A DNA stretch of 64,000 nucleotides from Acidaminococcus massiliensis. GTDB taxonomy: Bacteria; Bacillota; Negativicutes; Acidaminococcales; Acidaminococcaceae. The stretch's first letter is position 1, and the number at the start of each line of letters is the position of its first letter. Under the pieces are notes generated by a model. It ran no database searches. It was not told where the DNA came from and worked only from the letters and a program-made list of their open reading frames with translations. A program made the position numbers and the translations under genes. Shown here one piece after another: positions 685 to 45,765 of the stretch. The stretch is taken from the NCBI RefSeq assembly GCF_900095825.1, contig NZ_LT608315.1:62001-126000 (forward strand), read 5' to 3'.

Positions 685-1185
685 TTACAGCCCCGCCTTC
701 CTCACCAGTTCGATGATGTACTCCGTTGTCTTGTCGAAGTCTTCATCCACGGGGATGGTGTAGTCAGCGTATTTCAGATACAGGGGCATCCGCTCCCGGT
801 ACAGCTGGGTGAGCCGGTCTTCTGCAGAATTCAGCAGGGGCCGGCTTACTTTGTCCACGCAGCCGGCAATGGCTGCCAGGTCCCGGTTCAGGAAAAAGAT
901 TTTTCCCGTTGCCTGGAGAAAAGCGATATTTTCCGGCCGTTTCACCACCCCGCCTCCGCAGGAAATGATGATGCCGTCCATGGCGGAAAGGGCCTTCACC
1001 GCAGCCGTTTCCGCCTGGCGGAACACGTCTTCCCCTTCCTGGAACAAGTCCTTGATGGTGCGTCCGGTCTGTTCCACCACCTTATCATCCGCATCCAGCA
1101 CCGGCCGTCCCAGTGCCTTGCTCAGCTTCCGTCCGATGGTGGTCTTGCCAGCCCCGGGCATCCCGATGAGTACGATATTAGCCAT
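685..1185 (-). CDS. aroK: Shikimate kinase
   Basis: This 166-residue protein phosphorylates shikimate to shikimate 3-phosphate with ATP, step five of the chorismate pathway, in the cytoplasm. The P-loop is GMPGAGKTTIGRKL near residues 8-21, followed by the DADD segment that binds shikimate and Mg, and a CGGG motif near residue 76. Length and motif order are normal for AroK. It is the last gene of the aromatic operon and overlaps aroE by 8 bp, so it is probably translated by coupling. A bidirectional terminator follows. Confidence 0.95.
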   Translation of the reverse strand: MANIVLIGMPGAGKTTIGRKLSKALGRPVLDADDKVVEQTGRTIKDLFQEGEDVFRQAETAAVKALSAMDGIIISCGGGVVKRPENIAFLQATGKIFFLNRDLAAIAGCVDKVSRPLLNSAEDRLTQLYRERMPLYLKYADYTIPVDEDFDKTTEYIIELVRKAGL

Positions 1186-2011
1186 GGAAAGTTGCCTCCA
1201 GTTGTTTCATGATTTCCGGGATCAGTTCCGGATCCATTTTTTTCTGCTGCCAGATTTCTTCAGAGGCCACGGCCTGGGCCACCAGCATGTAAAGGCCGTT
1301 GCAGGTCCGGGCTCCTGTCTCCCGGGCATCGGCCAGGAAGCGGGTTTCCCCTGGATTATAGATGATATCCACAGCCGCAGCGAACCGGGCAGTGAACGCT
1401 GCCGAAACCGGGCTTTCCCCCACTTTGGGGAACATGCCCACTGGGGTGGTATTGATGATCACCTGACCGCCTCTTCCTTCCCGTTCTGCTGATCCATAAG
1501 TCTCCAGCAGGGTGTCCGGCCGCTGTGCCAAGAAACGGGCCAATGCGTCCTCCGCCTTCGCCCGGTCCCGGACCAGGATCCGGATGGAAGCCGCCCTGCG
1601 GTCCGCCAGTACCTGAAGGACCGCTTTGGCTGCCCCGCCGTTGCCCAGGACGGTCACTGCTGCCCCCTCCAGGGAGATCCCAGCCGCCTGGAGCATCCGA
1701 TCAAACCCCAGATAATCCGTATTGTACCCCTTCACTCCCTGGGGAGTAAAAGACAGGGTATTCACCGCTCCGATCTTTGCGGCTTCCGGCGCAATGGCCG
1801 CCAGATACGGCAGCACCGTTTCTTTGTAAGGGATGGTCACATTGCTGCCCCGGAGCCCCTCTGGATTTTCCTGGACAAAAGAAGCGACCTCTTCCGGTTC
1901 CCGTTCCAGGAGCTCATAGGTATCCTCCGTGCCCAGGGCCCGAAAGAGCGCCTGATGGATCTGGGGCGACAGGCTGTGCCCCAGTACCCTTCCCAACAAT
2001 CCAAATTTCAT
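1178..2011 (-). CDS. aroE: Shikimate dehydrogenase
   Basis: A 277-residue NADPH-dependent enzyme that reduces 3-dehydroshikimate to shikimate. The N-terminal substrate domain shows SLSPQIHQAL (about residue 13) and NVTIPYKE (about residue 58); the Rossmann domain shows GNGGAAKAVL near residue 126, and NTTPVGM follows later. The longer open frame upstream is not used: an ATG at 2011 overlaps the pheA stop as ATGA and gives the usual MKFGLLG start. The tight overlap with pheA and aroK supports translational coupling. Confidence 0.95.
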   Translation of the reverse strand: MKFGLLGRVLGHSLSPQIHQALFRALGTEDTYELLEREPEEVASFVQENPEGLRGSNVTIPYKETVLPYLAAIAPEAAKIGAVNTLSFTPQGVKGYNTDYLGFDRMLQAAGISLEGAAVTVLGNGGAAKAVLQVLADRRAASIRILVRDRAKAEDALARFLAQRPDTLLETYGSAEREGRGGQVIINTTPVGMFPKVGESPVSAAFTARFAAAVDIIYNPGETRFLADARETGARTCNGLYMLVAQAVASEEIWQQKKMDPELIPEIMKQLEATFHG

Positions 2012-2862
2012 GATTCTTTTTCTTCCTTTCCGTGATCCGCCGGATAATTCCCCAGGATCTTGCATTCCGTGGTGTCTTCCGGCAGATCTCCCAAGGCTTT
2101 CTGCACCGCTGGATCCGTCAGATGGCCGGTGATATCGATGTGGAAATAATATTCCCAAGGCCTTCCTGGTATGGGCCGGGATTCGATGTTGGTCATATTG
2201 ATCCGATACCGGGCAAAATGGGACAAGACCCGATACAAGGACCCGGGCTGATGCTTCAGGCTGACGATCAGGGTGATCTTGTCTGCTTCCGGCACCAGTT
2301 CCCGCTGCCGGCTGAGGATGATGAACCGGGTATAATTGCTCTGGTTGGTATTGATGCCCCGGGCCAGGATGGCCAGTCCATACTGTTCCGCCGCTTGGGC
2401 GCCGGCTACCGCCGCCATATGGGGATCTTTTTTCTGGGCCACCAATTCTGCCGCTTTGGCCGTATTGAAATAATTGAATTGCCGCATAGCAGGGTGTTCT
2501 TTGAAGAATACCTGGCACTGGGAAAACCCTTGGGGATGGGAATAGACTTCGGTGATCCCTTCCAATTTGGCTCCTGGACAGGCCAGGAGGCAGTGCTCCA
2601 CTTTGACGATTTTTTCCCCCACGATGGAAGCGCCATACCGCCGGACCAAGTCGTACACATCGGTGATCCCTCCCGTGGAAGAATTCTCGATGGGCAGCAC
2701 GCCATACCGTACCTTCCCTTCCATCACAGCCTGGATCACGTCCTCGAACAGCATGAAGTTCCTGGCGTCCACCGGTTTTCCGGCAAAATAAGTCTGGAGG
2801 GCCAGATGGCTGTACGCCCCGGGCACCCCTTGATAGCCTACAGGAATGGTTTCTTCTGCCAT
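2008..2862 (-). CDS. pheA: Prephenate dehydratase
   Basis: A 284-residue enzyme that converts prephenate to phenylpyruvate, the committed step to phenylalanine. The catalytic domain fills about residues 6-185 and contains the NYTRF motif with its catalytic Thr. An ACT regulatory domain follows, with GSLYRVLSHF and the ESRP motif, the usual site of phenylalanine feedback inhibition. There is no chorismate mutase domain. The ATG has GGAGGT five bases upstream. It sits between aroC (3-bp gap) and aroE (4-bp overlap). Confidence 0.95.
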   Translation of the reverse strand: MAEETIPVGYQGVPGAYSHLALQTYFAGKPVDARNFMLFEDVIQAVMEGKVRYGVLPIENSSTGGITDVYDLVRRYGASIVGEKIVKVEHCLLACPGAKLEGITEVYSHPQGFSQCQVFFKEHPAMRQFNYFNTAKAAELVAQKKDPHMAAVAGAQAAEQYGLAILARGINTNQSNYTRFIILSRQRELVPEADKITLIVSLKHQPGSLYRVLSHFARYRINMTNIESRPIPGRPWEYYFHIDITGHLTDPAVQKALGDLPEDTTECKILGNYPADHGKEEKES

Positions 2863-2865
2863 GGT

Positions 2866-3954
2866 TTACCTCCGTTCTGCCAGCAGGGACAGATCCAGCA
2901 GTGTCCAAGCCGTGACGGCTTCGATCACCGGGACAGCCCGGGGCAGGATGCAGGGATCGTGGCGTCCGGTGACTTCCAGGGTGGTGTTTTCTCCTGTAAC
3001 CACATTCACTGTATGCTGGGTCTTGCCGATGGAAGGGGTTGGTTTGACGGCCACCGTGAACAACAGCGGCATCCCATTGGTGATTCCCCCGGTGACGCCT
3101 CCATTGTGGTTGGTGGTACAGACCACTTTTCCATCCTGATAGGTCATGGGATCATTGGCCTCGCTGCCCCGCATTTCTGCCAGGCCGAAACCGTCTCCGA
3201 AAGCAATGCCCTTCACTGCCGGAACAGAGAACAGGGCATGGCTCAGCCGGCTTTCCACGGAATCGAAATAGGGTTCTCCCAGCCCCACCGGCAGACCGAT
3301 GGCCATACATTCGATGGTACCCCCTACGGAATCTTTTTCTTTCTGGGCTTCCGTGATCCGGACCGCCATGGCTTCCCGGACAGAAGGATCCAGCACCGGC
3401 AGGGTCTCATCTCCCCTAGCCAGGAGGGTCTCCGCCGTTTCTCCCAGAGGATCGAATTTCCGGTCCCGGACTCCCGCCAGGGTGGCCACATGGGCGCCTA
3501 CCGTGATCCCTCTGACCGCCAGCAGCTGTTTGGCCACGGCACCGGCAAAGACCAGAGGGGCTGTGAGCCTGCCGGAAAAACTGCCCCCGCCCCGATAGTC
3601 ATTGCAGCCGTGGAACTTCACATAGCCCGGATAATCCCCATGGCCCGGCCGCATGATTTCTTTCATCTTACTGTAATCTTTGGAATGGGCATTGCTGTTG
3701 GGGATCCGGGCACAGAGGGCCATGCCCGTAGTCCGGCCGTTGAAAAAGCCGCTTTCGATGCTGACACTGTCGCTTTCCTTCCGGGGCGTAGCCAGTTTGC
3801 TGTTGCCGGGGGCCCGCCGTTTCATTTCCCGGACAATGGCTTCCTGGTCCAATTCGATGCCTGCCGGCAGCCCGTCGATCACCACCCCGATGGAAGGTCC
3901 ATGGGATTCTCCAAAAATGGTCAGCTTGATCTGCTCACCCATCACACTGCTCAT
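2866..3954 (-). CDS. aroC: Chorismate synthase
   Basis: A 362-residue FMN-dependent enzyme that turns EPSP into chorismate, the last common step of the pathway. It shows the three family signatures: GESHGPSIGVVIDG at the N-terminus, a RGGGSFSGRLTAPLV segment around residue 120, and GRHDPCILPRAVPV near the C-terminus. An AGGAGG site lies five bases before the ATG. The start overlaps the end of aroA by 20 bp. Confidence 0.96.
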   Translation of the reverse strand: MSSVMGEQIKLTIFGESHGPSIGVVIDGLPAGIELDQEAIVREMKRRAPGNSKLATPRKESDSVSIESGFFNGRTTGMALCARIPNSNAHSKDYSKMKEIMRPGHGDYPGYVKFHGCNDYRGGGSFSGRLTAPLVFAGAVAKQLLAVRGITVGAHVATLAGVRDRKFDPLGETAETLLARGDETLPVLDPSVREAMAVRITEAQKEKDSVGGTIECMAIGLPVGLGEPYFDSVESRLSHALFSVPAVKGIAFGDGFGLAEMRGSEANDPMTYQDGKVVCTTNHNGGVTGGITNGMPLLFTVAVKPTPSIGKTQHTVNVVTGENTTLEVTGRHDPCILPRAVPVIEAVTAWTLLDLSLLAERR

Positions 3955-5227
3955 AATGTCCTCCTAACGCTGCAAAATCCTCCCAGAAATCCGGATAGGA
4001 TTTGGCCACACACTCGGCTCCCACCAAGGTCAGCGGTTCCCGGCACAGGATGCTGGCCACGGCCAGGCTCATGGCGATCCGATGGTCGTTCCAGCATTCC
4101 ACGGTGCCTCCGCCCAGTTCCACCACCCCATCGATGGACAGGCCATCCGGCCGTTCAGTGATCTTGGCACCCAGCTTGTTCAATTCCGTGGTCATGGCCT
4201 GCAGCCGGTCACATTCTTTCAGCCGCAGCCGTTCGGCGTGGATGATTTCCGTATGGCCCTGGCTGAGGGCAGCTGCCACCGTCAATACCGGGATGATATC
4301 CGGACAGTCCCCCCCGTCGATGGTAGTACCCAAAGGCACCGCCGGCCGGCTCACCAGTTTTTCTCCTTCAAAGACCACCTGTCCCCCCATCCGCTGGAGG
4401 ATGGGGATGATGGCCCTGTCCCCCTGGAGAGAGTCAGGATCCATCCCCAATAAGTTGATGGTCCGCCCCAGCATCCCAGCGGTGAGCCAGAAGGCCGCCT
4501 GGGAATAATCCCCTTCCACAGCGCCCTGCCGAGGCTGGTACTGCTGGTTCCCAAGGATCCGGTACCATCGATAGTTTTCGTGTTCGATCCGGATGCCGTA
4601 CTTTTGCAAAGCGGAAAGGGTCAAAGCGATGTAGCTCTGGCTTTCCAGCTTCCCGGTGATTTCCAGGGTGGAATCCCCGTCCAGCAAGGGCAGGGCAAAG
4701 AGCAGCCCGCTGATGAACTGGCTGCTCACATCGCCGGGCAGGGTAAATTTCCCCGGACGGAGAGGGCCCCGGACTTTCAGAGGGAAATTGTCCGTATCGC
4801 TCCCTTTTTGGAACAACAGTCCCTGTTCCCGGAAAATGGCTTCATAGGGGTCCAAAGGCCGGCTGCCCAGCTTCCCAGAGCCGATGAACGTGAAGGTTTC
4901 CCCGGAGACCGCTGCCAGGGGGATCAGGAAACGAAGGGTGGACCCGGATTCCCCGCAGTCCAGGACTGTTCCCGCCTGATGGGGACGGCATCCCTCCACG
5001 GCAAAACCAGTACGGCCATCGGTTTCCTCCTGAGAAGAAATCTCCGCCCCCAGCTGCCGGAGGCAGTCACAGGTGGCCAAAATATCTTTGCTGAGGCTCA
5101 CTTCTTCTACCTGGCTCTTTCCCTGGGCCAGGGCCGCACAGATCAGGGCCCTGTGGCCCATGCTTTTGGAAGAAGGTACCCGGAGCGTTCCGGAGAGAGA
5201 GCCCGGCTCAATGCGCAACGTGGTCAT
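3935..5227 (-). CDS. aroA: 3-phosphoshikimate 1-carboxyvinyltransferase (EPSP synthase)
   Basis: A 430-residue enzyme that joins phosphoenolpyruvate to shikimate 3-phosphate. The N-terminal SSKSMGHRALI segment with its conserved Lys, the DCGESGSTLRF motif near residue 90, and the late NDHRIAMSLA motif identify the family. The second motif carries the stretch that decides glyphosate class, but I do not assign a class by eye. It overlaps both aroB and aroC by 20 bp, the same length on each side. Confidence 0.96.
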   Translation of the reverse strand: MTTLRIEPGSLSGTLRVPSSKSMGHRALICAALAQGKSQVEEVSLSKDILATCDCLRQLGAEISSQEETDGRTGFAVEGCRPHQAGTVLDCGESGSTLRFLIPLAAVSGETFTFIGSGKLGSRPLDPYEAIFREQGLLFQKGSDTDNFPLKVRGPLRPGKFTLPGDVSSQFISGLLFALPLLDGDSTLEITGKLESQSYIALTLSALQKYGIRIEHENYRWYRILGNQQYQPRQGAVEGDYSQAAFWLTAGMLGRTINLLGMDPDSLQGDRAIIPILQRMGGQVVFEGEKLVSRPAVPLGTTIDGGDCPDIIPVLTVAAALSQGHTEIIHAERLRLKECDRLQAMTTELNKLGAKITERPDGLSIDGVVELGGGTVECWNDHRIAMSLAVASILCREPLTLVGAECVAKSYPDFWEDFAALGGHYEQCDG

Positions 5228-6296
5228 GATTCCATCCTTTCACATAGGGTTCCAGATCTGCAAAGGCCACTTTTTTCAGCAGGTGCTTCCCGATTTCCGG
5301 GACAATGATCAAGGTAATCTGGTTCCCCCGTTTCTTCTTGTCCATAGCAATCCCCGCCAGTACGTCCTGGTCACTGATGGAGTCTTCCGTAGGGATCTGG
5401 TATCTTTCCAGCAAATGCTGGATCCGGTCCGCCGTGCCCGGTTGGGTCAGCCCCATCTTTTCCGTGTTCCGGGTCAGCCGCACCATGCCGATGGCCACTC
5501 CTTCCCCATGGGTGTATTTCTCATAATGGTAGTACCGTTCCACTGCATGGCCGATGGTATGGCCGAAATTCAGCACCATCCGAGCCCCCACATCCCATTC
5601 GTCTTCTTCCACCACCTTCACTTTCAATCGGCAGCAGGCCGCGCTGATCTCGGCTGCATGAGCCAAGATGTCTTCGTCTCCCTGGAACTGCTCCAGCCGG
5701 GCAAACAGATCCGGATCGCCGAAAGCGGCACATTTGATCACTTCCGCCAGCCCGTCGTGGAGATACCGCCGGTCCAGGCTCCGGAGAAGTTCTGGATCCA
5801 TCAGGACCCCTTTGGGCTGATAGAAGGCGCCTACCAGGTTTTTCCCTTCCGGCAGGTCCACAGCCACCTTGCCCCCTACACTGCTATCGATCTGAGCCAG
5901 GAGGGTAGTCGGGATCTGGATGAAATCCACTCCCCGGAGGAAGCTGGCCGCCACAAAGCCTCCCAGATCCCCGGGGACGCCGCCCCCCAGGGTAATCACC
6001 AAGTCGCTGCGGGTCATACCGAAATCGGCACAGGCCCGGACCATGCGGCCGAAGGTTTCCAGGTTCTTATGGTCTTCCCCGGCTTCCATCACCAGCCGGC
6101 GGACGGCAAACCCCTGTTCCCGGAGCTGCTGTTCCAGGCTGTTTCCATAGAGCCCGTCAACGGTCCGGTCTGTAAGGATGGCCGCCTTGTCCGCCTTAGA
6201 CAGGGCACGGACCTTTTCCCCCATGGCAGCCCAGGAATGGGCGGCAATTTCAATGGTATAGGATTTTTCTCCCAGATCAACGAAGATTTTTTCCAT
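5208..6296 (-). CDS. aroB: 3-dehydroquinate synthase
   Basis: A 362-residue NAD- and metal-dependent enzyme that cyclises DAHP to 3-dehydroquinate. The GGGVPGDLGGFVAA nucleotide-binding motif lies near residue 100, and metal ligands are visible in NFGHTIGHAVE near residue 250. Length is normal. The next enzyme of the pathway, 3-dehydroquinate dehydratase (aroD/aroQ), is absent from this operon and from the window. Confidence 0.96.
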   Translation of the reverse strand: MEKIFVDLGEKSYTIEIAAHSWAAMGEKVRALSKADKAAILTDRTVDGLYGNSLEQQLREQGFAVRRLVMEAGEDHKNLETFGRMVRACADFGMTRSDLVITLGGGVPGDLGGFVAASFLRGVDFIQIPTTLLAQIDSSVGGKVAVDLPEGKNLVGAFYQPKGVLMDPELLRSLDRRYLHDGLAEVIKCAAFGDPDLFARLEQFQGDEDILAHAAEISAACCRLKVKVVEEDEWDVGARMVLNFGHTIGHAVERYYHYEKYTHGEGVAIGMVRLTRNTEKMGLTQPGTADRIQHLLERYQIPTEDSISDQDVLAGIAMDKKKRGNQITLIIVPEIGKHLLKKVAFADLEPYVKGWNHDHVAH

Positions 6297-7149
6297 AGAA
6301 CATGTCCCTTCTTTTCTTTTTGGCCTGCTCCATCATCTGTTCCAGTTCTTCTCGGTCATCCTGCTGGAGGGCACTCTTCCAGTGCTCCAGCTGCAGCTCC
6401 AATTTGTTGATTTCCCGGAGCACCGGTCCTTTGTTCAGGAGGAAAAGATCGCTCCACAGGGCCGCATTGATGTCCGCCACCCGGGTGGCATCCCGGAAGG
6501 AGCCGGCCACGAAGTACTTGGTATTTTCCTGCATGGAATCGCTGTTGATCAAGGATACCGCCATCACATGGGGCAGATCACTGGTATAGGCAATGATGCT
6601 GTCATGCTCTTCCACGGTCAGTTCCACCACCCGGGCACAGCCCAGCTCATAGGCCATATTCCGCAGCCAGGCTTCATGGTCCGGCAGGTTGTTTGCCCGG
6701 CGGATCAAGATGAAATTGGCCCCCTGGAAAATCTGGGAAGTGCTCTGGCTGTAGCCCTTGCCCTCCCGGCCCGCCATGGGATGGGTAGGGACAAAATCCA
6801 TAGACCGCCCCAGGAGTGCGTCCACTTGGTCGGGGATGCTCCCCTTGATCCCCATCACATCGGTGAGGAGCACATCCGGCTTGAAATACTGGACATGTTC
6901 CCGGACAAAGGGGACAAAGGCGCTTGGATACATGCAGCAGATGATCACATCCGCTTCCCGGAGGAGTTCCGGGTTCCCGTCCGCCAGTTCCGTCACATAG
7001 CCTTCATCCTTGGCCATGAGAGAGACGATATGGTTCCGGTCCATCCCGATGATCCGTTTTACCTTCTGGCTCTTCAGGGCCTTGGCGTAAGACCCGCCGA
7101 TCAGCCCCAGCCCTACAATTGCAACTACCGTGTCCTGCAGTTTCTTCAT
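6277..7149 (-). CDS. tyrA: Prephenate dehydrogenase
   Basis: A roughly 290-residue NAD-dependent enzyme that converts prephenate to 4-hydroxyphenylpyruvate for tyrosine. It has a Rossmann GLGLIGGSYAKALK motif at the N-terminus, the THPMAGREGKG substrate motif near residue 140, and a helical dimerisation domain. I prefer the ATG at 7149 because the AGGAAGG site is 8 bases away; the alternative ATG at 7155 lies only two bases from that site. It lacks a C-terminal ACT domain, so feedback control by tyrosine is not evident in the protein itself. Confidence 0.92.
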   Translation of the reverse strand: MKKLQDTVVAIVGLGLIGGSYAKALKSQKVKRIIGMDRNHIVSLMAKDEGYVTELADGNPELLREADVIICCMYPSAFVPFVREHVQYFKPDVLLTDVMGIKGSIPDQVDALLGRSMDFVPTHPMAGREGKGYSQSTSQIFQGANFILIRRANNLPDHEAWLRNMAYELGCARVVELTVEEHDSIIAYTSDLPHVMAVSLINSDSMQENTKYFVAGSFRDATRVADINAALWSDLFLLNKGPVLREINKLELQLEHWKSALQQDDREELEQMMEQAKKKRRDMFYGKNLR

Positions 7150-7174
7150 TGCCATTTCCTTCCTGTTTCCGTCC

Positions 7175-8188
7175 TTACAGTTCCCGTCCCACAGCCGGGG
7201 CCAGGATCCGCAGGTCCTGCATCAGTTTGTCAAAATCCGGCAGGGAAAGGCTCTGGGCCCCGTCACACCAGGCGTGTTGGGGATCGTTGTGGGTCTCGAT
7301 GATCAGACCGTCCGCTCCTGCTGCAATGGCCGCTTTGGACATAGTGGGCACCATCCAGGCCTTTCCGGTAGCATGGCTGGGATCCACGATCACCGGCAGA
7401 TGGCTCAGCCGCTTCACCGCCTGTACGGCAGAAAGATCCAGGGTGTTCCGGGTATAAGTTTCAAAGGTCCGGATGCCCCGTTCACAGAGGATGACGTTCT
7501 CATTGCCTTCCGACATGATGTATTCCGCGCTCATGAGCCATTCTTCGATGGTAGCGGACAGTCCCCGCTTCAGGAGGATGGGTTTCTTCAGTTTTCCCAG
7601 TTCTTTCAGCAGGGTGAAGTTCTGCATATTCCGGGCCCCTACCTGGATCAAGTCCACTTTTTCCACAAATTCATCGATCTTGTCCGCAGCCATGATCTCC
7701 GTCACAATGGGCAGATGGTTGGCATTCCCTGCCTGGCGGATCATGTCCAGACCCTTGTCGCCCAACCCCTGGAAGGAGTAAGGAGAAGTACGGGGTTTGA
7801 ACGCCCCGCCCCGGAGCATGGCTGCTCCGCTCTGTTTCACAGAGGCGGCAATGGTGTCCATCTGCTGCTGGCCTTCCACCGAACAGGGACCGGCAATGAC
7901 CACCAGCTTTTTGCCGCCCACTTTCACCCCGCTGACGTCGATGATGGAATCATCCGGATGGAACATCCGGTTGGCCCGTTTGAAAGGTTCCTGGACCCGC
8001 ATGGCCTTGTCCACCCATTCATTCACCATGAAATCTTCCGGATCCAATATGCTGGTATCCCCTACGATGCCCAGGACTTCCTGGTTCTCCCCGATGCTGT
8101 CATGGATGGTGAAGCCTCTCTGTTCCAGGCTCTTTCTCAGTTTTTCAGATGCTTCCTTGGGTGCACCTTTCTTCATTACGATGATCAT
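7175..8188 (-). CDS. aroF: 3-deoxy-7-phosphoheptulonate synthase (type I-beta)
   Basis: A 337-residue DAHP synthase that condenses phosphoenolpyruvate and erythrose 4-phosphate, the entry step to aromatic biosynthesis. Residues 1-80 form the ferredoxin-like domain that in related type I-beta enzymes carries Tyr/Phe feedback control. The TIM barrel follows with AGPCSVEG, a GGAFKPRTSPYSFQG loop, CERGIRTFE and DPSHATGK. An AGGAGG site precedes the ATG by seven bases. It is the first enzyme gene of the operon and lies directly behind the attenuator at 8246-8436. Confidence 0.95.
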   Translation of the reverse strand: MIIVMKKGAPKEASEKLRKSLEQRGFTIHDSIGENQEVLGIVGDTSILDPEDFMVNEWVDKAMRVQEPFKRANRMFHPDDSIIDVSGVKVGGKKLVVIAGPCSVEGQQQMDTIAASVKQSGAAMLRGGAFKPRTSPYSFQGLGDKGLDMIRQAGNANHLPIVTEIMAADKIDEFVEKVDLIQVGARNMQNFTLLKELGKLKKPILLKRGLSATIEEWLMSAEYIMSEGNENVILCERGIRTFETYTRNTLDLSAVQAVKRLSHLPVIVDPSHATGKAWMVPTMSKAAIAAGADGLIIETHNDPQHAWCDGAQSLSLPDFDKLMQDLRILAPAVGREL

Positions 8189-8245
8189 GTTGTTTCCTCC
8201 TGTTCTTCTTTCCTACCATTCTACTTTTACCAACACCCTCTGCAC

Positions 8246-8275
8246 AAAAAAAGCAGACTCGCAAGGAGTCTGCTT
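8246..8275 (-). terminator. Attenuator terminator in the aro operon leader
   Basis: On the minus strand a perfect 10-bp stem (8266-8275 with 8251-8260) with a 5-base loop is followed by a run of seven T. It lies between the leader-peptide stop at 8311 and the aroF start at 8188, so it would stop transcription before the first enzyme gene. A second small hairpin (CTCCGG/CCGGAG, 8293-8308) sits between the stop codon and the terminator. Confidence 0.85.
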
Positions 8276-8310
8276 TACGGTTCAATGGGAACCTCCGGGG
8301 ATCCGGAGCA

Positions 8311-8436
8311 TCAGTCTCTCTTCACGGTGGGATAAACATGCAGTTCATGGCAGCCAAAATAACCAAAGCCAAAATAATAGCTCTGGGTAAAATAGAAGCC
8401 ATATGCAGTTCCCCAGTTCATTGTGGAAAGAGTCAT
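8311..8436 (-). CDS. Aromatic-rich leader peptide of the aro operon
   Basis: This 41-codon frame is too short for ordinary gene calling. It encodes 1 Trp, 6 Tyr and 5 Phe; 11 of these 12 aromatic residues fall in residues 8-27, for example the segment YGFYFTQSYYFGFGYF. The ATG at 8436 has AAGGCGG seven bases upstream and begins about 26 bases after the predicted transcription start. It ends with TGA just before the terminator hairpin. This is the textbook layout of peptide-leader attenuation: ribosome stalling on Tyr/Phe (perhaps Trp) codons when charged tRNA is scarce would permit read-through into aroF. An internal ATG at 8421 is an alternative start. Family knowledge supports the mechanism; expression has not been shown. 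Confidence 0.85.
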   Translation of the reverse strand: MTLSTMNWGTAYGFYFTQSYYFGFGYFGCHELHVYPTVKRD

Positions 8437-8469
8437 ATTCAAACCGCCTTTATACATTGGAATGCGTAT

Positions 8470-8498
8470 ATAATACTCCTGTTTACAAAATCCGTCAA
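8470..8498 (-). promoter_or_regulatory. Promoter of the aro operon
   Basis: On the minus strand TTGACG (8493-8498) and TATTAT (8470-8475) are separated by exactly 17 bases. Predicted transcription begins near 8462, giving a short leader before the leader-peptide ATG. Confidence 0.8.
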
Positions 8499-8558
8499 TG
8501 GAGAAATGATTTTCCTGTCATTGAAACGAAAATATGTATCGATAGTTACAGGGTCGTG

Positions 8559-42859: not shown

Positions 42860-45514
42860 TTACAGGCTGCGCAGGGTTGCGATCCGTTCTTTCAGGCCGT
42901 CGATCCGCGCCAGGATCTCCGTTTGCTTGGTCTTTTCCTTTTCCACCACTTCCGCAGGTGCCTTAGCCAGGAAGTTCTGGTTGTTCAGTTTTCCGGCCGT
43001 CCGTTTGGCTTCCTTTTCGGCGCCGTCCAGTTCCTTCTGGAGACGGGCCAATTCCTTTTCCACATCGATGAGCCCTTTGAGAGGCAGGTACACCTTGGCC
43101 CCGTTGACCACGGCCGCCATGGCATTTTCCGGAGCCGTATCTTCCATGCCTCCCAGAGTCAGGGTATCTACCGTGCCCAGCTGCCGGATGTAATCCCCGT
43201 TGGCCGCAAAGACAGCTTTCAGGTCTTCGTCCACCAGCACCGTCGCCGGAGCCTTGTGGCCGGGAGCTGCATTCACTTCCGCCCGCATGTTCCGGATGGC
43301 TTTGATCACGTCCATGACGGCAGTCATCTGTTTTTCCACCGTATCATCCATCAGATTGTCGTCCGCCACCGGCCAAGGAGCAATCATGATGCTCTGGCCT
43401 TCATGAGGCAGATGCTGCCAGATTTCTTCCGTAATGAAAGGCATGTAGGGATGGAGCAGCTTCATGGCATCGCCCAGCACCCGGCACAGAACCGTCTGGG
43501 CCGTAGCCCGTGCTGCCGCGTTTTCCCGGTCGTAGAGACGGGGTTTGGCCAGTTCGATGTACCAGTCGCACACTTCGCCCCAGATGAAGTCGTAGATCAG
43601 CCGGCCGGCTTCTCCCAGTTCGAATTTTTCCATATAGTTGGATACATCCCGGATGGTATGCTGGAGCCGGGACAGGATCCATTTGTCCGCCAGTGTCAGC
43701 GGTGCTTTTTCTGCATCCTTGTCATAACCGTCTAAGTTCATGAGAGCGAACCGGGATGCGTTCCAGATCTTGTTGGCAAAGTTCCGAGTGCTTTCGATCC
43801 GGTTCCAGTAGAAACGCATGTCGTTCCCCGGAGTATTGCCGGTGATCAGCATGAACCGCAGGGTATCCGCCCCATACTTATCCACCACTTCCACCGGGTC
43901 GATGCCGTTGCCCAGGGATTTGCTCATCTTCCGGCCCTGTTCATCTCGGACCAGGCCATGGATGAATACATGCTTGAAAGGTTCTTTCCCCATGAATTCT
44001 TCACCCATGGTGATCATCCGGGCTACCCAGAAGAAGATGATGTCGTAGCCAGTGACCAGCACACTGGTGGGATACCAGTGTTCCAATTCTTCCGTCTTAT
44101 CCGGCCAGCCGAACGTGGAGAACGGCCACAGGCCGGAGCTGAACCAGGTGTCCAGGCAGTCTTCTTCCTGATGGATGTGGGTGCTACCGCATTTGGGGCA
44201 TACTGTCAGATCCGTCCGGGAAGCAGCCACTTCTCCGCAGTCGTCGCAGTACCAGACCGGAATCCGGTGGCCCCACCAGATCTGCCGGGAAATGCACCAG
44301 TCATGGATGTTTTCCATCCACTGGAGATAGGTATTGGTGAATCGACTGGGGACGAATTCCGTATGGCCTTCGGTGACACATTTGATGGCAGCTTCTGCCA
44401 GAGGTTTCATCTTTACGAACCACTGGGTGGATACCATGGGTTCCACCACATGGTGGCAGCGCTGGCAGTGGCCTACAGAGTGGGGGGCATCTTCGATCTT
44501 CACCAGAAGTCCCATGTCCTTCAGATCCTGGACGATGTGCTTCCGGCATTCGTACCGGTCTTCCCCTTCATATTTGCCGGCTTCCTTGGTCATCTTCCCG
44601 TCCAGGCCGATGACTACGATCTGTTCCAGGTTGTGCCGCTGTCCTACTTCATAGTCGTTGGGGTCATGAGCCGGAGTGATCTTCACAGCACCGGTACCGA
44701 ATTCCAGGTCCACATATTCATCGGCGATGATGGGGATTTCCCGGTCCGTGGTGGGCAATGCGATTTTCTTCCCGACCAGGCTGCCATACCGTTCATCCTT
44801 GGGATTCACGGCTACGGCCGTATCCCCGGGGATGGTTTCCGGACGGCTGGTAGCGATAGTCAGGTACTGGTCTTTTTCCCCCACGATGGGATATTTGATG
44901 TACCACAGAGCACCGGGATCATCCTGGTGTTCCACTTCCACATCGGAAAGGGCCGTGCGGCAGTTGACGCACCAGTTGATCATCCGGGTGCCTTTGTAGA
45001 TCAGGCCCTTTTCATAAAGGCTCACGAAAGCTTCCCGGACCGCCCGGCTCAGGCCCTCGTCCATGGTGAACCGCTGCCGGTCCCAGTCGCAGGAAATCCC
45101 CAGGCTTTTCAGCTGGCTGACGATTTCATCTCCGTAAGCTTCCTTCCACTTCCAAACCCGTTTCACGAATTCCTCCCGGCCCAGGTCGTACCGGGTCAGG
45201 CCTTCTTTCTTCTTCAGTTCTTCTTCCACCTTGATCTGGGTGGCCAAACCCGCATGGTCATAGCCCGGCAGCCAGCAGGTGTTGTCCCCCAGCATCCGAT
45301 GCCAGCGCACCAGGATGTCCTGGAGGGTATTGTCCAGGGCATGGCCCATGTGGAGCTTGCCGGTGATGTTGGGAGGCGGGATCACCACACTGAAGGGTTT
45401 CCGGCTCTTGTCCACCGGCTGATGGAAAAACCCGTGTTCGATCCAATATGCATACCATTTTTTCTCCACCGCAGCCGGATCATAGACTTTGGGGATGTTG
45501 TTTTCTTCTGCCAT
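42860..45514 (-). CDS. valS: Valyl-tRNA synthetase
   Basis: An 884-residue class I enzyme that charges tRNA-Val. The HIGH motif reads HMGH (residues 55-58) and the KMSKS motif is intact (GRKMSKSLGNGIDP, near residue 530). The editing domain lies between them, and the C-terminal coiled coil (DVEKELARLQKELDGAEKE) binds tRNA. AAGGAGG lies before the ATG. It is preceded by a T-box leader whose apparent specifier codon is GTC (valine). Confidence 0.97.
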   Translation of the reverse strand: MAEENNIPKVYDPAAVEKKWYAYWIEHGFFHQPVDKSRKPFSVVIPPPNITGKLHMGHALDNTLQDILVRWHRMLGDNTCWLPGYDHAGLATQIKVEEELKKKEGLTRYDLGREEFVKRVWKWKEAYGDEIVSQLKSLGISCDWDRQRFTMDEGLSRAVREAFVSLYEKGLIYKGTRMINWCVNCRTALSDVEVEHQDDPGALWYIKYPIVGEKDQYLTIATSRPETIPGDTAVAVNPKDERYGSLVGKKIALPTTDREIPIIADEYVDLEFGTGAVKITPAHDPNDYEVGQRHNLEQIVVIGLDGKMTKEAGKYEGEDRYECRKHIVQDLKDMGLLVKIEDAPHSVGHCQRCHHVVEPMVSTQWFVKMKPLAEAAIKCVTEGHTEFVPSRFTNTYLQWMENIHDWCISRQIWWGHRIPVWYCDDCGEVAASRTDLTVCPKCGSTHIHQEEDCLDTWFSSGLWPFSTFGWPDKTEELEHWYPTSVLVTGYDIIFFWVARMITMGEEFMGKEPFKHVFIHGLVRDEQGRKMSKSLGNGIDPVEVVDKYGADTLRFMLITGNTPGNDMRFYWNRIESTRNFANKIWNASRFALMNLDGYDKDAEKAPLTLADKWILSRLQHTIRDVSNYMEKFELGEAGRLIYDFIWGEVCDWYIELAKPRLYDRENAAARATAQTVLCRVLGDAMKLLHPYMPFITEEIWQHLPHEGQSIMIAPWPVADDNLMDDTVEKQMTAVMDVIKAIRNMRAEVNAAPGHKAPATVLVDEDLKAVFAANGDYIRQLGTVDTLTLGGMEDTAPENAMAAVVNGAKVYLPLKGLIDVEKELARLQKELDGAEKEAKRTAGKLNNQNFLAKAPAEVVEKEKTKQTEILARIDGLKERIATLRSL

Positions 45515-45529
45515 AAATCTGCCTCCTTA

Positions 45530-45765
45530 AAAAAATAAACCCGTCCTGCTGTATAGGACGAGTTGTTCGCGGTACCACCTACATTCTCAATTGCTTGAGC
45601 ACCTCTGTGGCGTAACGTGCCAAAACGGGTACGGCTCACCACCGTACCGGCTCCCGGATGACTTCCAGCGCATTGCCCGGATGCTTCCACCACCCGCATC
45701 CTCTCTGTCAGTGCAAGAGGCGCTGTACTCCTTCCCTTCATGGCCATTGACTGTATGGTCGTATG
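45530..45765 (-). promoter_or_regulatory. T-box riboswitch of the valS-folC operon
   Basis: On the minus strand the leader contains the conserved antiterminator sequence AGGTGGTACCGCG (45568-45580), the terminator stem CGTCCT/AGGACG with T-rich tail (45530-45560), and a stem I with AGAGAG and a GAA-GTC-ATC context. The candidate specifier GTC is at 45660-45662. Uncharged tRNA-Val would bind and allow read-through into valS. Confidence 0.93.

Follow-up and report, generated by a model that had tools for sequence, protein, structure and literature searches.

The 64,000-nucleotide stretch of Acidaminococcus massiliensis DNA analysed here ("the window") carries eight aromatic genes on its reverse strand, in the order aroF to aroK, in which neighbours overlap or lie at most 20 nt apart. 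They are named from their best NCBIfam matches (Table 1). The frame assigned as aroE is part of a longer frame, and its start position is provisional. A preliminary description, made from the DNA letters alone, had proposed that a leader in front of aroF controls a whole aromatic operon, and the close packing of the eight genes fits a single transcription unit of that kind.

Table 1 The aroF leader and the genes downstream of it, with positions in the window
Feature	Position	Strand	Basis
Promoter-like site TTGACG-17 nt-TATTAT	8470..8498	-	consensus scan only, 10 of 12 matches
Probable ribosome site AAAGGCGG	8444..8451	-	upstream of leader start
Leader peptide frame, ATG to TGA, 41 codons plus TGA	8311..8436	-	sequence read
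Segment 1, CTCTTTCCAC, inside leader codons 2-5	8423..8432	-	predicted partner of the box on ribosome-free RNA
Tyr/Phe run, codons 12-27 (control codons)	8356..8403	-	sequence read
H1 hairpin, CCAGAGCTATTATTTTGGCTTTGG, within the Tyr/Phe run	8363..8386	-	terminator-like scan and folding
Segment 2 (the box), CGTGAAGAGAG; partner is segment 1 or the terminator 5' arm and loop	8316..8326	-	
Segments 3 and 4, intrinsic terminator hairpin, loop CTTGC (core TTGCG, 8260-8264)	8250..8276	-	
U tract, seven T in a row	8246..8252	-	sequence read
aroF, DAHP synthase	7175..8188	-	best NCBIfam match
tyrA, prephenate dehydrogenase	6277..7155	-	best NCBIfam matches, below curated cut-offs
aroB, 3-dehydroquinate synthase	5208..6296	-	best NCBIfam match
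aroA, EPSP synthase	3935..5227	-	best NCBIfam match
aroC, chorismate synthase	2866..3954	-	best NCBIfam match
pheA, prephenate dehydratase	2008..2862	-	best NCBIfam match
aroE, shikimate dehydrogenase	1178..2008	-	best NCBIfam match, just below curated cut-off
aroK, shikimate kinase	685..1185	-	best NCBIfam match, below curated cut-off

The predicted leader peptide is MTLSTMNWGTAYGFYFTQSYYFGFGYFGCHELHVYPTVKRD. It contains 12 aromatic residues (6 Tyr, 5 Phe and 1 Trp), 11 of which fall within residues 8-27, and it follows a probable ribosome site that is short of the full AGGAGG. Among the 818 frames of 20-100 codons in all six reading frames of the window, a density of 11 aromatic residues per 20 codons is reached in one, and of 10 in one. 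The promoter-like site, the 41-codon frame and its aromatic residues are all present as the preliminary description had them, as is the terminator with its seven T before aroF, which has 11 pairs and a 5-nt loop where a perfect 10-bp stem had been claimed. Between 8150 and 8600 there are two promoter-like matches, against 0.8 expected from shuffled sequences, and two terminator-like matches, against 0.4 expected, the second of these being H1. On folding, the leader RNA (8462-8240) is more stable than its shuffles, with a z of -6.1, and the longer RNA 8462-8188 gives -3.4.

A search of 8180-8520 against Rfam 15 matched no family at E values up to 1, and the T-box covariance model (RF00230) gave no match within the same region. 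The only T-box of the window at gathering score lies at 45551-45750 on the reverse strand, before a frame (42860-45514) that by eye resembles a valyl-tRNA synthetase, and T-boxes are thus used elsewhere in the source genome. A profile of the Tyr/Phe run, searched at E up to 10 for a second copy of the leader in the source genome, matched only the leader itself, and a DNA search gave weak short matches only. The idea that TTRCG is simply the ordinary terminator loop of this genome was rejected: a script located 23 terminator-like hairpins in the window, of which two contain these letters, and by eye they stand at the loop only in the aroF leader terminator.

The leader is conserved throughout the family. 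AroF was found in 54 of 59 Acidaminococcaceae genomes at E up to 1e-60, and 52 upstream regions could be read, 51 from these genomes and one (G003) from a genome below the threshold; the three left out have less than 50 nt upstream (G053, G072) or only a gene fragment (G060). All 52 regions, taken before the first aroF, contain a frame with a Tyr/Phe run, the box and a terminator-like hairpin, the hairpin being interrupted in G055 and its loop deviating in G052. The check that the preliminary description had set, whether relatives keep the aromatic run and the terminator, thus came out in its favour. Leader starts, boxes and terminators were placed by script and in some cases corrected by hand; the leaders of G004 and G051 were read by eye, and that of G051 reaches the contig end and is hence absent from the counts on 51 leaders given below. 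The profile of the Tyr/Phe run matched 53 of the 59 genomes, once in each.

Both residues occur in all of the 51 leaders counted, with 3-8 Tyr, 1-7 Phe and 7-13 aromatic residues in total. The run is shortened in some genomes, and it mostly ends with a Tyr codon followed by a Phe codon. The peptide core around G-Y-F is alike across families and before different genes, while the C-terminus and the stop codon drift. Several Acidaminococcaceae genomes have tandem aroF copies (L010, L012, L018, L026), with the leader before the first copy. In G003 (L007, L025) the aroF match is in two pieces, residues 1-121 and 296-338, and the leader is present.

Downstream of the run, all 51 leaders have a box with the sequence CGURAANAG or a variant of it. 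It lies about 29 nt past the last aromatic codon, the distance being 26-30 nt in 46 of the 51. The values of 17-20 nt for G020, G067 and G070 arise because the script placed the end of the run too late, and G014 and G041 have 34-35 nt. The position of the stop codon is far less regular, its end falling anywhere between 14 nt ahead of the box start and 37 nt beyond it. In 19 leaders the box begins past the stop codon, with sequence and spacing kept, which marks it out as an RNA element and not as part of the peptide. The box codes for V-K-R or V-N-R in many leaders, and a peptide motif V-K/N-R near the leader end was considered and rejected, since equal bases follow the stop codon in these 19.

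The box has two alternative partners. In the pairing 1:2 it pairs with segment 1, located around the start codon and within the first dozen codons of the leader. Over 16 genera, this pairing has a predicted energy of about -13.3 kcal/mol with a genus's own box and about -9.3 kcal/mol with the box of another genus, and in each of five draws 20,000 permutations of the partners yielded no set equal to the native one. Examples are AUCUGUUU with AAACAGAU in G010, and AUCUAU with AUAGAU in G018. In the pairing 2:3 the box pairs with the 5' arm and loop of the terminator, CGUAA with UUACG plus further pairs. Among the Acidaminococcaceae genera partner swaps give p values of 0.04 to 0.17 for 2:3; there is no clear coevolution here because both sides are near-invariant. 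Across families it is clear, with about -11.4 kcal/mol for native partners and -8.9 kcal/mol on swapping (p 0.00005 to 0.00075 in five draws), while a control region gave p values of 0.74 to 0.98. Each draw had 17 representatives, 14 from other families, with one row per family, and three from Acidaminococcaceae. G026 was left out of this test, as the script found no terminator there; the run end of G091 is misplaced, and G119A duplicates G119. Pairs that have changed together include AUUAAUGAGU with ACUCAUUAAU in G027 and GAUGAGUC with GACUCAUC in G245, and in G251 CGGAAUC faces GACUCCG with one mismatch.

The terminator stem also coevolves among genera, as expected. Segment 1 shows no such relation to the terminator arms in the swap test among genera (p 0.69 to 0.88 for the 5' arm, 0.06 to 0.45 for the 3' arm). 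The box against the 3' arm gives p values of 0.03 to 0.15, a signal that we read as the likeness of the box and the 3' arm, each being complementary to the 5' arm. A further candidate, in which the box would pair with the codons that directly follow the run (UUUUGCG), was dropped on inspection by eye, as many lineages are without it. The two remaining checks named in the preliminary description, a competing antiterminator and covarying stems, therefore gave what it had anticipated: a box that is complementary to the loop and 5' arm of the terminator and coevolves with them across families, and covariation of 1:2 and of the terminator among genera.

The run itself contains the hairpin H1, formed by CCAGAGC...GCUUUGG in the window and by CCGGU...ACCGG in G018. 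Random synonymous recodings served as the reference for its folding in 30 leaders, the first listed of each Acidaminococcaceae genus and a single one from each other family; H1 beats their mean in 29 of the 30, the exception being G041 (z +0.6). The mean z is -1.7 for the 16 Acidaminococcaceae genera and -2.4 for the 14 other families; that of the window's own H1, -1.4 (p 0.077), is not significant by itself. The arms of H1 encode much of the peptide core, and RNA pairing therefore accounts for part of the conservation of the core.

We conclude that the leader is very likely a ribosome-mediated transcription attenuator, which would sense charged tRNA-Tyr and tRNA-Phe and set transcription of the whole aromatic operon. 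This is the reading of the preliminary description, and it is supported by the conserved run and terminator, the competing antiterminator and the covarying stems. Those features of an attenuator that can be read from sequence are all present: a frame with clustered codons, a terminator, a candidate 2:3 antiterminator and a candidate 1:2 protector. The conservation of the leader frame suggests that it is translated. With no ribosome on the leader, the first leader codons would pair with the box, enclosing H1; the box would be hidden and the terminator would form. When Tyr and Phe are both ample, a ribosome would pass the aromatic codons and cover the box, and again the terminator would form. 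When either amino acid is short, the ribosome would stall in the run, some 29 nt or more before the box. This would break 1:2 and leave the box free to pair with the emerging 5' arm and loop of the terminator, allowing read-through into aroF.

The proposed switch was modelled by folding the RNA up to the terminator loop in 51 genomes with a ribosome at different positions, and calculating P(2:3), the probability that the box is paired with the terminator 5' arm and loop. If only the RNA ahead of the ribosome can fold, the median P(2:3) is 0.05 without a ribosome, 0.62 as a mean over the Tyr/Phe codons and 0.00 with the ribosome at the stop codon. If the RNA on both sides of the stalled ribosome is free to pair, sampling every second Tyr/Phe codon near the box, the median is 0.09, and the value exceeds the ribosome-free one in 11 of the 51 genomes. 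A second ribosome over the start region brings the stalled value in this two-sided folding to 0.60, above ribosome-free in 40 of the 51. Folding thus speaks for a switch by stalling only if the upstream RNA cannot pair across the ribosome. The switch is plausible on these models, with the breaking of 1:2 by stalling as its weakest step.

Some genomes depart from the predicted pattern. In nine (G014, G023, G041, G055, G056, G058, G065, G068, G073) the stop codon lies 8-14 nt before the box, and a ribosome at the stop is predicted to leave the box largely free (0.44-0.89); with folding on both sides the box is still free in four of the nine, and G017 gives 0.46. In 14 of the 51 genomes the ribosome-free P(2:3) is above 0.3, so that the switch is not predicted to be off without a ribosome. 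In the window, the box is predicted to be freed by nearly any stall before codon 34, whether at a Tyr/Phe codon or not, so the specificity must come from which tRNA is short.

The leader extends beyond the family. A leader profile built from several families was run against 300 Negativicutes genomes at E up to 0.5 and matched 88, namely 46 Acidaminococcaceae and 42 of the 241 genomes sampled outside this family, leaving 199 of the 241 with no match. In at least 28 of the 42, from 13 families, inspection by eye placed the leader on the strand of AroF and 123-256 nt ahead of it. The matches of G030 and G136, and of G053 in Acidaminococcaceae, are located in long frames, while those of G100 and G158 precede AroF-like frames. 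Seven AroF upstream regions without a profile match were fetched (G219, G251, G211, G102, G185, G221, G155); all seven hold an aromatic leader frame, and the profile thus misses real cases. Further copies of the leader stand before other genes of the pathway: aroK in G121 and G113, aroA in G040 and G119, aroE in G170 and tyrA in G199, where the names are those of the best NCBIfam matches, with aroK and tyrA below the curated cut-offs. A copy in G101 stands, by eye, before the start of an aroA-like frame.

In some other Negativicutes aroF is preceded by a T-box instead. A T-box senses tRNA directly and works without a leader peptide. Among 30 AroF loci from 18 genomes outside Acidaminococcaceae, nine have the leader, 11 have a T-box directly upstream and ten have neither, the T-box search having taken in 19 of the 30. 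One of the ten has only 27 nt upstream, and another belongs to G025, from the sister family in the same order. By eye, and with the specifier taken at its usual position, the T-boxes read UAC (Tyr) in nine of the 11 and UUC (Phe) in two, which supports Tyr and Phe as relevant signals for aroF in Negativicutes. Two genomes, G033 (L151, L173) and G026 (L155, L176), have two aroF paralogues, one with the leader and one with a UAC T-box; the script located no terminator at the G026 leader. In G027 (L216) both aroF copies have a Tyr/Phe leader, and about 1.8 kb ahead of the second copy the profile matches once more.

How many amino acids the attenuator senses is less secure than that it is an attenuator. 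It may respond to one only, for example Phe, with the other codons acting as filler that is kept by H1. The leader of Corynebacterium glutamicum aroF has Phe-Tyr-Phe and reportedly responds to Phe but not Tyr (PMC11802643), and H1 does constrain part of the run at the RNA level. This is nevertheless rather unlikely, as every leader counted has at least three Tyr and at least one Phe, the run mostly has Tyr followed by Phe as its last pair of aromatic codons, and the T-boxes before aroF in related bacteria include both specifiers, with Tyr the commoner. Joint sensing of Tyr and Phe thus agrees with the composition of all 51 leaders, yet C. glutamicum provides a counterexample.

Two other explanations dispense with uncharged tRNA as the signal. 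The peptide could be a nascent-chain arrest peptide, which binds free Tyr, Phe or another ligand inside the ribosome, so that the arrest controls the switch. TnaC is an arrest peptide that acts with tryptophan, and the persistence of the G-Y-F core across families and before different genes would be expected of such a peptide. The arms of H1, however, encode much of that core, and H1 is more stable than the average of its recodings in all but one of the leaders sampled. The run can also shorten, and it is the distance from run to box that is kept while the stop codon drifts; we regard arrest as improbable. It is harder still to credit that the leader RNA binds a protein or a metabolite, with the aromatic frame there by chance. 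The strong structure of the leader would suit this explanation, but the frame and run recur in every readable upstream region of the family and also in other families, the Rfam search returned nothing, and the pairing parts change in sequence while complementarity is kept. Attenuation by a ribosome that stalls for want of charged tRNA accounts for these observations best.

Leader-peptide attenuation is textbook knowledge in proteobacteria, and the Acidaminococcus leader resembles those of E. coli trp and pheA in having a short frame rich in codons for the end product, the 1:2, 2:3 and 3:4 pairings, a terminator and a biosynthetic operon. In the trp attenuator segment 1 lies among the control codons. 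In Acidaminococcus it falls within the opening codons, ahead of the control codons, which is a point against the attenuator reading, and the control codons carry a hairpin of their own. In addition, the antiterminator strand takes in both the loop and the 5' arm of the terminator, and in 19 of the 51 leaders it begins past the stop codon; two amino acids are combined in one run, and the host belongs to the Negativicutes.

The preliminary description had presented such a leader as a novelty in a Firmicute. This goes too far, as related systems have been described elsewhere. Ribosome-type leaders with histidine codons precede his or hisS genes in Firmicutes (PMC9413887), his attenuators being described in the Bacillus cereus group, some Eubacteriales and Erysipelotrichales (PMC9413887; PMC2965389), and branched-chain leaders in Listeria and Staphylococcus are the subject of two further papers (PMC5864092, PMC5794164). 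The his genes of Acidaminococcus are assigned to HisR (PMC9413887). A further likeness is aroR of C. glutamicum, a leader that encodes Phe and Tyr and is followed by a DAHP synthase operon, for which a ribosome stalling model has been proposed (Neshat et al., 2014; PMC11802643, PMC4046766); by its published description, it has Phe-Tyr-Phe where the present leaders have 7-13 aromatic residues, and it comes from a different phylum. The predicted motif uORFC-13-1 also combines a short frame, with one or more Phe codons, and a terminator before aroF (PMC8632094). The motif comprises 24 sequences, from Acholeplasma and environmental samples only, and its description mentions one or more Phe residues plus another base-paired part, but no such arrangement of the box (PMC8632094). 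A description of the present element was not found in a literature search whose coverage left most subscription journals outside.

The proposed attenuator stands before the shared aromatic pathway in many lineages of Negativicutes, if not in all, and the genes that are under the leader here are under Tyr or Phe T-boxes in others, which provides a natural series of one type of sensor replacing another. It also allows a direct test of whether one ribosome can sense two amino acids together. A wider hypothesis can be framed tentatively, and we would put it at somewhat less than an even chance, its probability being lowered by the patchy distribution of the leader outside Acidaminococcaceae. A single leader module, consisting of the run with H1, a spacer of about 29 nt and a box that reads the terminator loop, may have arisen early in Negativicutes and come to control aroF, aroA, aroK, aroE and tyrA, integrating Tyr and Phe in a single run and exchanging places with Tyr or Phe T-boxes. 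The spacer would act as a ruler for the leading edge of the ribosome, and H1 would cause a pause during which the ribosome catches up with RNA polymerase.

Short Phe-rich frames with a terminator-like hairpin were also seen before aroF at five loci of Clostridia MAGs (L117, L119, L120, L121, L126), that of L119 reading FAFAFFYFFTLAFYFTYF. They may represent attenuators of this type in a class other than Negativicutes.
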